From positions 1,550,001-1,614,000 of the forward strand of contig NZ_CP108352.1 in assembly GCF_036237275.1 (NCBI RefSeq): a stretch of 64,000 bases of DNA, written 5' to 3'. Both the position numbers and the translations under genes were made by a program. The notes under the pieces were generated by a model, which saw nothing but the letters and a program-made list of their open reading frames with translations, searched no databases and was not told the origin of the DNA. Positions 26,003 to 27,088 of this stretch are shown in pieces (positions within the stretch are counted from its first letter, which is position 1; each line of letters begins with the position of its first letter). Source of the stretch: Streptomyces sp. NBC_01353 (GTDB lineage: Bacteria > Actinomycetota > Actinomycetes > Streptomycetales > Streptomycetaceae).

Positions 26003-26011
26003 GCTCGGCGG

Positions 26012-26050
26012 CGCGCCCCGCTCCGGCCCCCAGGGGCGGGGCGGGGCGCG
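26012..26050 (+). terminator. Terminator after M1 peptidase gene
   Basis: A 14-bp stem with one G-U pair, 26012-26025 with 26037-26050, loop 11 nt, beginning 9 nt after the stop codon. Confidence 0.8.
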
Positions 26051-26107
26051 TCCGTACGCCGTGGGTAGGCTCGGCCCTCACAGGCAACCGGAGGGTGGGA
26101 GCACAGC

Positions 26108-27088
26108 GTGACCGAGTCGGAGCGGTACGGCGATCCGGCGGTGCGGGAGGCCGTGGCGGGGCGGATCGCCATGGAGTGGGGGCTCGAACTGCCCGGCTCC
26201 TTCTTCCGGTTCCTCGACTTCCTGGCCGCCCTCGGTCCGGCCGAGGAGCGGGCGCTACGGGACCTGGAGCTGGCTCCGTACGGCGTCATGGACCTGTTCG
26301 CGGACCCTTCGGCGTTCCCCCGCGAGGGTCTCGACATCCGGGTGCACGGGCGGTACTACCGCGATCCGCCGGAGTTCCTCACGTTTCTGCACGGCGGGTC
26401 GGACGGACTCCATCACGGGCTCTGGTCCGACGACGGGCGCACGTGCGACGGCGTCGCCTCGTACTACTCCAACGACGGCGACGGCATCGAGCGGCGCCAC
26501 CGAACACCGCTGGAGGCGGTGCGGGCGCGGATCGAGCGGGCGCAGCGGGACCTGGCGGAGTACGCGGCCGACGGGGAGGACGTGCACGAGCGGCTCGCTG
26601 ATCTCGGGCGGCTGCGGGCGGCTCTGACGGGCGTCGAGACCGGCGAGCGTACGGAGACGGGCCTCGCGTACTCCGACGCGTACGACTCCCGCCGGCCGGC
26701 CGTCGACTCCGACCGGATCACGACTCTGGACGGTGCGGGAGCGCTGGTGCCCGGGGTGACGGCCCTGGACCGCCCGCCGCACAACGGGGCGGACGAGTAC
26801 CGCTTCGGCACGTTCATGGAGAAGCTGTTCGAGGACGCGGAGGCGCTGCGGGCGGCCCGCGACGAGGCCCTGCGACGGGCCACCGCCGGCGATCCGTCGG
26901 AGGCACTGGTGCTCGGTCGGGACCTGCACTGGGCGTCGTACGGCGAGCCGCAGCGCGAGGAGTACGCACGCGAACTGCTGGCCGTGGCGTACCGCGATCT
27001 CGACCGCCCGTCCCTCACGACGATCGCGGCGACCCACCACCGCCACCGCGCGCTCGCACACGTGGACGTGCTGCGGCCGGCGCGCTGA
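26108..27088 (+). CDS. HPF1-like (DUF2228) protein, putative ADP-ribosylation factor
   Basis: 326 aa, GTG start at 26108 behind GGTGGGAG. From memory of human HPF1, several blocks match in order: LPGSFFRFLDFL (about 28-39; HPF1 PEDFYHLWKFC), GRYYRDPPEFLT (81-92; HPF1 WRFYYDPPEFQT), DGAGALVPG (HPF1 HGAGLVVPV), LVLGRDLHWASYG (267-279; HPF1 LELGMDLFCYGS) and ARELLAVAYRDL (287-298; HPF1 GQLLPLAYNLL). HPF1 completes the PARP1/2 active site with a catalytic Glu. In my hand alignment that position falls on Ala260, with Asp262 and Glu265 close by. No PARP is in the window. Cytosolic and monocistronic, between a terminator and the LacI gene. Confidence 0.72.
   Translation: MTESERYGDPAVREAVAGRIAMEWGLELPGSFFRFLDFLAALGPAEERALRDLELAPYGVMDLFADPSAFPREGLDIRVHGRYYRDPPEFLTFLHGGSDGLHHGLWSDDGRTCDGVASYYSNDGDGIERRHRTPLEAVRARIERAQRDLAEYAADGEDVHERLADLGRLRAALTGVETGERTETGLAYSDAYDSRRPAVDSDRITTLDGAGALVPGVTALDRPPHNGADEYRFGTFMEKLFEDAEALRAARDEALRRATAGDPSEALVLGRDLHWASYGEPQREEYARELLAVAYRDLDRPSLTTIAATHHRHRALAHVDVLRPAR

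Follow-up and report, generated by a model that had tools for sequence, protein, structure and literature searches.

The locus

The window (the whole 64,000-nucleotide stretch of Streptomyces sp. NBC_01353 DNA that was analysed) carries one gene of the HPF1 family, whose coordinates are given in Table 1 together with those of its parts and of related features in other genomes. A GGGAG lies about 6 nt 5' of its GTG start codon (noted by eye), and a strong GC hairpin separates it from the preceding gene, for an M1 peptidase: the segment 26003-26066 folds with -51.1 kcal/mol (z -3.09). The hairpin suggests that the HPF1 gene is probably transcribed separately from the peptidase gene; a simple scan around the HPF1 gene found neither a T-run terminator nor a sigma-70 promoter. 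The ten window neighbours that were scanned comprise a BCCT transporter, peptidases, a LacI regulator, a sugar ABC transporter and a GH1 glycosidase; no recognised ADP-ribosyltransferase (ART) and no toxin family were found among the ten. The HPF1 gene is under purifying selection and is evolving as a protein: dN is 0.14-0.19 and dS 0.45-0.51 in comparison with its three nearest relatives, and dN is smaller than dS against all of the compared rows (30/30).

Table 1. Features of the HPF1-family gene in the window, and genes at related loci (prefixed L)
Feature	Location	Strand	Basis or remark
HPF1-family gene (GTG start; 326 aa and a stop codon)	26108..27088	+	Pfam, profile, AF2 model, Foldseek
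Strong GC hairpin between M1 peptidase and HPF1 genes	26006..26061	+	Fold energy
N-terminal HPF1 domain, about residues 20-131	26165..26500	+	PDB profile alignment, secondary structure of model
C-terminal HPF1 domain, about residues 134-326	26507..27085	+	PDB profile alignment, model
RYYRDPPEF motif, residues 82-90	26351..26377	+	Block common to bacteria and human
Arg222	26771..26773	+	Invariant in 31/31 subfamily-1 sequences
Loop ATAGDPSEALV, residues 258-268	26879..26911	+	Place of the human catalytic/PARP-docking loop
Subfamily-2 HPF1 gene, DPAEF motif, without catalytic Glu	L073:961-1902	-	Pfam, alignment
Subfamily-2 HPF1 gene, DPAEF motif, without catalytic Glu	L074:1264-2205	+	Pfam, alignment
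KOW-like and helical region, then HPF1 domain	L028:7290-8966
Ada-AlkA gene directly downstream of HPF1 gene	L022:9111-10628		Pfam
Aldo/keto reductase gene directly upstream of HPF1 gene	L004:2054-3184	-	Pfam
Aldo/keto reductase gene directly upstream of HPF1 gene	L017:2177-3403		Pfam

An HPF1 fold in Streptomyces

HPF1 is an animal protein that assists PARP enzymes in modifying proteins at serine once DNA has been damaged. The earlier note had proposed, from the letters and their translation, that the protein encoded in the window is a homologue of it. It is a true and full-length homologue, with the two-domain fold extending over the whole length, as follows: 1) PF10228 (HPF1), the sole Pfam family matched at E <= 1, scores 34.3 bits (E 2.6e-8) against a curated cut-off of 27.1. 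2) Human HPF1 is matched by the window protein in phmmer (E 2.1e-7) and by a profile of 31 relatives at E 5.7e-18 (the best value), with both domains aligned; the family profile run against the PDB finds six distinct sequences at E <= 0.001, of which five bear the label Histone PARylation factor 1; the sixth (6tvh_A, from Nematostella) has the deposited name 'Predicted protein' and the title HPF1 in the Foldseek listing. 3) The AF2 model (mean pLDDT 91.4, pTM 0.90) has HPF1 structures for 12 of its 12 Foldseek matches in the PDB at E <= 0.001 (E 1.8e-12 to 2.6e-7; TM-scores 0.54-0.73). NCBIfam gave no match to the window protein, and neither an ART fold nor PF00644 was found in it, HPF1 being alone in Pfam and among the significant PDB folds.

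The likeness to HPF1/C4orf27 (PF10228; human and Nematostella; structures 6m3g, 6tx1 and 6tvh) is one of fold, from end to end, and of the order of motifs. The blocks that had been picked out by eye are all in place (RYYRDPPEF at 82-90, GAGALVPG at 209-216, LGRDL at 269-273, SYG at 277-279, RELLAVAY at 288-295), and so is the N-terminal Pro/Phe-rich helix, which begins at about residue 29 in the translation and the model.

A patchy family

A search of genome contigs with the single protein found no relatives; searching with an alignment brought up 31 loci, spread over Streptomyces, Kitasatospora, Nonomuraea, Actinomadura, Sphaerisporangium, Actinocatenispora and Marinactinospora. (A technical note: alignment A2 leaves out L007 and L008, whose contigs are as long as those of L005 and L002, as well as L003, which is the window itself, and the disrupted L033, L035 and L036.) At E <= 0.001 each of the 31 family members matches PF10228 and nothing else in Pfam. 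Of 32 genomes that are known positives PF10228 recovers 31 at E <= 0.1, with one match in each and 27 over the cut-off; its single miss is the damaged L036. The family is patchy and single-copy among the actinomycetes sampled: within the genus PF10228 is matched in 5 of 199 genomes (4 over cut-off); it is also matched in 5 of 150 genomes of the family to which the Nonomuraea genome G606 belongs (4 over cut-off) and, in a sample of the phylum, in 2 of 396 at E <= 0.01, where the window's own genome is alone over the cut-off and alone found by the alignment search (1/396). A weak PF10228 match in G527 (L078) was dropped as an alpha/beta hydrolase by eye. Databases, we presume, may well already list bacterial members of HPF1, as Pfam scores them over its cut-off.

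The nearest named relatives of the window protein are from Streptomyces. An unrooted tree of 31 sequences is divided by one branch (99/98) into a group of 21, mostly Streptomyces, and a group of 10, mostly Nonomuraea and Actinomadura, each with its exception: a Streptomyces sequence (L026) falls in the group of 10 and an Actinomadura sequence (L021) in the group of 21. A second bacterial subfamily is found in G715 and G630, two of the five matched genomes in the family of G606. Its Pfam scores (49.3 and 45.2 bits) lie above those of subfamily 1, and one of its members, L073, matches Nematostella HPF1 at E 1.2e-15; overall identity to animal HPF1 is no higher, despite the higher scores. No neighbour common to both subfamily-2 loci was obvious by eye.

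Within the window's lineage the HPF1 gene occupies a site that is empty elsewhere, since in 29 M1 peptidase loci of other genomes of the genus a LacI gene lies directly downstream in six and an HPF1 gene in none (0/29). The gene may also be dispensable in three actinomycetes, because it is disrupted in 3 of the 31 loci (L033, L035 and L036: one cut by a stop, two without internal parts), disruptions that could be sequencing errors.

Patchiness, a site empty in related genomes and broken copies might suggest an immunity or defence protein, which is what many orphan, patchily spread genes of actinomycetes are. That reading is improbable. PADLOC and PHROGs contain no match to the window protein; the HPF1 family has no match at E <= 1 in phage records or in plasmid records; viral contigs gave no match and viral folds none at E <= 0.001. 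Nor is there a toxin family among the ten scanned neighbours, or a SUKH/Smi1 structure among the best 50 of 77 Foldseek rows.

Could the gene be a eukaryotic HPF1, acquired by transfer and now decaying? The documented home of HPF1 is in animals and protozoa (PMC4858568, PMC10238386); one of these two papers proposes a close co-evolution with PARP-1. The evolutionary study PMC10238386 aligned sequences from metazoans and protozoans. Among the matches listed in a search of open-licence papers, titles and abstract openings name no bacterial HPF1. The three disrupted loci would also suit a gene in decay. A dN below dS in every comparison does not, and the existence of two bacterial subfamilies, together with an N-terminal extension in certain relatives (see below), argues against recent arrival, on a tree that is unrooted. 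Identity to animal HPF1, moreover, is only about 22-28% in eight bacterial rows. Acquisition from a eukaryote, followed by decay, is improbable.

The catalytic and PARP-docking loop

The catalytic residue of human HPF1 is Glu284, and it is paired, as is Asp286, with Arg239; the E284A mutant is entered in the assay table of PMC7884425 with no histone H3 modification. According to the same paper, F268, F280, D283, C285 and K307 touch PARP1, and D283H abolishes binding to PARP1 (PMC7884425).

Judged by alignment, the catalytic glutamate is lost in the bacterial HPF1 family. The earlier note's hand alignment had put human Glu284 opposite Ala260, and profile alignments (with human and with Nematostella HPF1) and MAFFT reproduce this placement; the phmmer single-sequence alignment differs, bringing human Asp283 onto Asp262 and Glu284 onto Pro263. 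The Ala260 column contains A in 26, H in 3, D in 2 and E in none of the 31 subfamily-1 sequences, and S and A in the two subfamily-2 rows (MAFFT). None of the phmmer, hmmsearch and MAFFT alignments supplies a Glu for position 284 or a Phe for position 280.

In bacterial HPF1 the loop for docking on PARP seems to be shorter by some six residues, its exact place depending on the aligner. MAFFT opens a six-residue gap opposite human VQFAND, which holds F280 and D283, in every one of the eight bacterial rows; hmmsearch with the human protein splits the excess into insertions of two and four residues, the latter being F280-D283; hmmsearch with Nematostella HPF1 has no insertion at this loop. Taken singly, F280 meets a gap (MAFFT, all eight bacterial rows), an insertion (human hmmsearch) or Thr259 (phmmer), and D283 a gap (MAFFT and human hmmsearch) or Asp262 (phmmer). 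The sites of F268, C285 and K307, occupied in the window protein by Arg251, Gly261 and Glu285 (MAFFT), discriminate poorly, because the corresponding residues of Nematostella HPF1 are S, G and N.

The search for a partner

The earlier note had remarked that the gene stands free, away from any PARP gene in the window. Within the power of the search this extends to the entire genome, since the window's own genome has no PARP at E <= 1 (PF00644; 2 of 14 control genomes matched, both below the cut-off). All PARP searches were made with the PF00644 profile at its curated cut-off, which no control genome exceeded, and the counts over the cut-off, to be read with that in mind, are 0 of 31 HPF1-bearing genomes (two with weak ART-like matches below it), 0 of 199 genomes of the genus (one weak match) and 0 of 396 actinomycetes (one match just under, 26.0 against 26.7 bits); the count for six further genomes is also 0, two of them repeating earlier ones, a result that does not show absence. 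PARP is likely to be absent from the HPF1-bearing genomes.

The composite active sites of PARP1-HPF1 and PARP2-HPF1 (6m3i, 6tx3) are made of two halves. The HPF1 half is present in bacteria as a fold; no enzyme half scored over the cut-off, and key residues that join the two are changed or missing. We infer that the window protein would not support serine ADP-ribosylation, and a role of that kind, like that of human HPF1, is not favoured for it. Its job is probably a different and perhaps an older one than that of animal HPF1, because it lacks the catalytic glutamate and its genome yielded no PARP.

Might another acid do the work of the lost glutamate? The earlier note had thought of Asp262 or Glu265. 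An acid at 262 or 265 is kept in 31 of 31 subfamily-1 sequences, which makes a shifted acid possible, yet neither site is invariant (D262 in 25/31; E in 21/31 and D in 5/31 at position 265) and both subfamily-2 sequences have no acid in that stretch of the loop (MAFFT). With a shifted acid, the protein could be an HPF1-like cofactor of an ADP-ribosyltransferase other than a recognised PARP, perhaps in the repair of DNA damage. In the hmmsearch profile alignment Asp262 falls on human Asp286, the partner of Arg239 (PMC7884425), and the invariant Arg222 falls on Arg239 (by hmmsearch, not by MAFFT); the phmmer placement of D283 on Asp262 and, for a part in DNA damage, the Ada-AlkA genes described below would fit as well. 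All the same, a cofactor with a shifted acid is rather unlikely: besides the acid-free loops of subfamily 2 and the alignments' failure to place Glu at 284 or Phe at 280, there is no recognised ART among the ten scanned neighbours, and DarT, considered as a partner, was rejected, as it occurs in 1 of 36 HPF1-bearing and 3 of 44 HPF1-free genomes, that is, with no association. SOS control was likewise rejected: no LexA-type box (GAACN4GTTC) lies within 400 nt upstream of any of the 25 HPF1 starts checked, and one RecA-NDp-like pattern was found, in L014.

Two individual matches may be recorded here. The genome of Kitasatospora sp. MBT63 (L038) has a PARP match, below the threshold, in the C-terminal region of a protein that looks, by eye, like an RHS-type toxin, and one HPF1-bearing Streptomyces (the genome of L012) has a strong match to DarT (193 bits; G590:C10:221115-221726).

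The conserved surface

In an alignment of ten rows (six from subfamily 1, two from subfamily 2, Nematostella and human) 24 residues are identical throughout, plus V116, for which the human residue is not printed. In the N-terminal domain they include D62, H80, R82, D86, P87, E89, F90, T92 and H102, five of which (R82, D86, P87, E89 and F90, identical in 10/10 rows) belong to the RYYRDPPEF motif. None of the 24, nor V116, is among the entries of the mutant table of PMC7884425. The bacterial family draws attention to a conserved surface in the N-terminal domain that lies apart from the PARP1-interface residues tested in that table (PMC7884425). The surface kept from bacteria to human would consist of the HxR...DP.EF.T motif near the N-terminus together with the helical core of the C-terminal domain, rather than of the PARP1-docking/Glu284 loop.

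Clues from relatives

Relatives from a sister clade (Nonomuraea, Sphaerisporangium, Actinomadura) have an N-terminal extension before the HPF1 domain. In five long forms (L028, L031, L029, L023 and L027) this comprises a KOW-like part and a helical region; in L025, L026 and L030 the helical part is found without the KOW part. Pfam's KOW family is matched over its cut-off in L023 (Actinomadura madurae), below it in L028 and L031, and not in L029 and L027 (E <= 0.01). The N-terminus of L028 has NusG for its best structural matches (E 6.2e-3, probability 1.00); the model of the whole-length KOW form is poor (pLDDT 56.2). A KOW-like start resembling the C-terminal KOW domain of NusG precedes the HPF1 domain in relatives from Nonomuraea, Sphaerisporangium and Actinomadura madurae; the window protein has no such extension, and the aligned members of the Streptomyces-type clade have no KOW-like start. 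The KOW domain of the NusG type binds the transcription and translation machinery, and its likeness in the sister clade, with the helical region beside it, suggests a task close to RNA polymerase, ribosomes or nucleic acid.

In another clade (L001, L022 and L034) an Ada-AlkA gene lies directly downstream of the HPF1 gene on the same strand. Proteins of the Ada-AlkA family repair alkylated DNA, and a DNA-repair setting is therefore possible. Both clues, KOW and Ada-AlkA, come from relatives, and neither from the window locus.

A proposed role without PARP

What would an HPF1 do in a cell that probably has no PARP? The reading that we hold with moderate confidence is that the window protein belongs to a small, patchy actinomycete family of HPF1-fold proteins that work without PARP, most likely as binding or adaptor proteins. 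The window protein would accordingly be an HPF1-fold adaptor independent of PARP, for which we infer both a partner and an activity. Weighing against this reading are the control genomes, which stayed below the PARP cut-off, the weak ART-like matches in two HPF1-bearing genomes, the acid kept at 262 or 265, the dependence of the loop alignment on the aligner, the possible equivalence of Arg222 and Arg239, the Ada-AlkA genes, which would suit a part in DNA damage, and the KOW score over the cut-off in one long form of five. Possessing the fold, and having neither the catalytic Glu nor a detected partner, the family separates the HPF1 scaffold from the chemistry.

Speculation about the origin of this arrangement is on less certain ground. 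The HPF1 fold could have begun in bacteria, independent of PARP, and eukaryotes could later have gained the F280/D283 loop beside Glu284, turning it into a serine ADP-ribosylation factor. This is a tentative proposal, and a doubtful one. The ancestral HPF1 would, on such an origin, have been tied to gene expression or to DNA repair, as the KOW-like extension and the Ada-AlkA neighbour hint. If it is true, the bacterial proteins would reveal the function that HPF1 had before it met PARP, and the DP.EF surface would mark an unstudied activity, which may persist in human HPF1. One can think of the bacterial family as a natural experiment on the origin of the composite active site.

Other neighbours

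Gene context yielded neither an operon nor a partner, and neighbours mostly differ between loci. Certain adjacencies recur. An aldo/keto reductase gene immediately precedes the HPF1 gene in the same orientation in one clade (L004, L013 and L014) and separately in L017, whose HPF1 is only 42-43% identical to that clade. In L032, as in the window-like loci, a LacI-like gene adjoins HPF1. Actinomycetes have many aldo/keto reductases and many LacI regulators, and for this reason these neighbours are given little weight. An M1 peptidase gene is a neighbour in the window-like loci alone, namely the window, L005 (the same as L007), L006 and L012.
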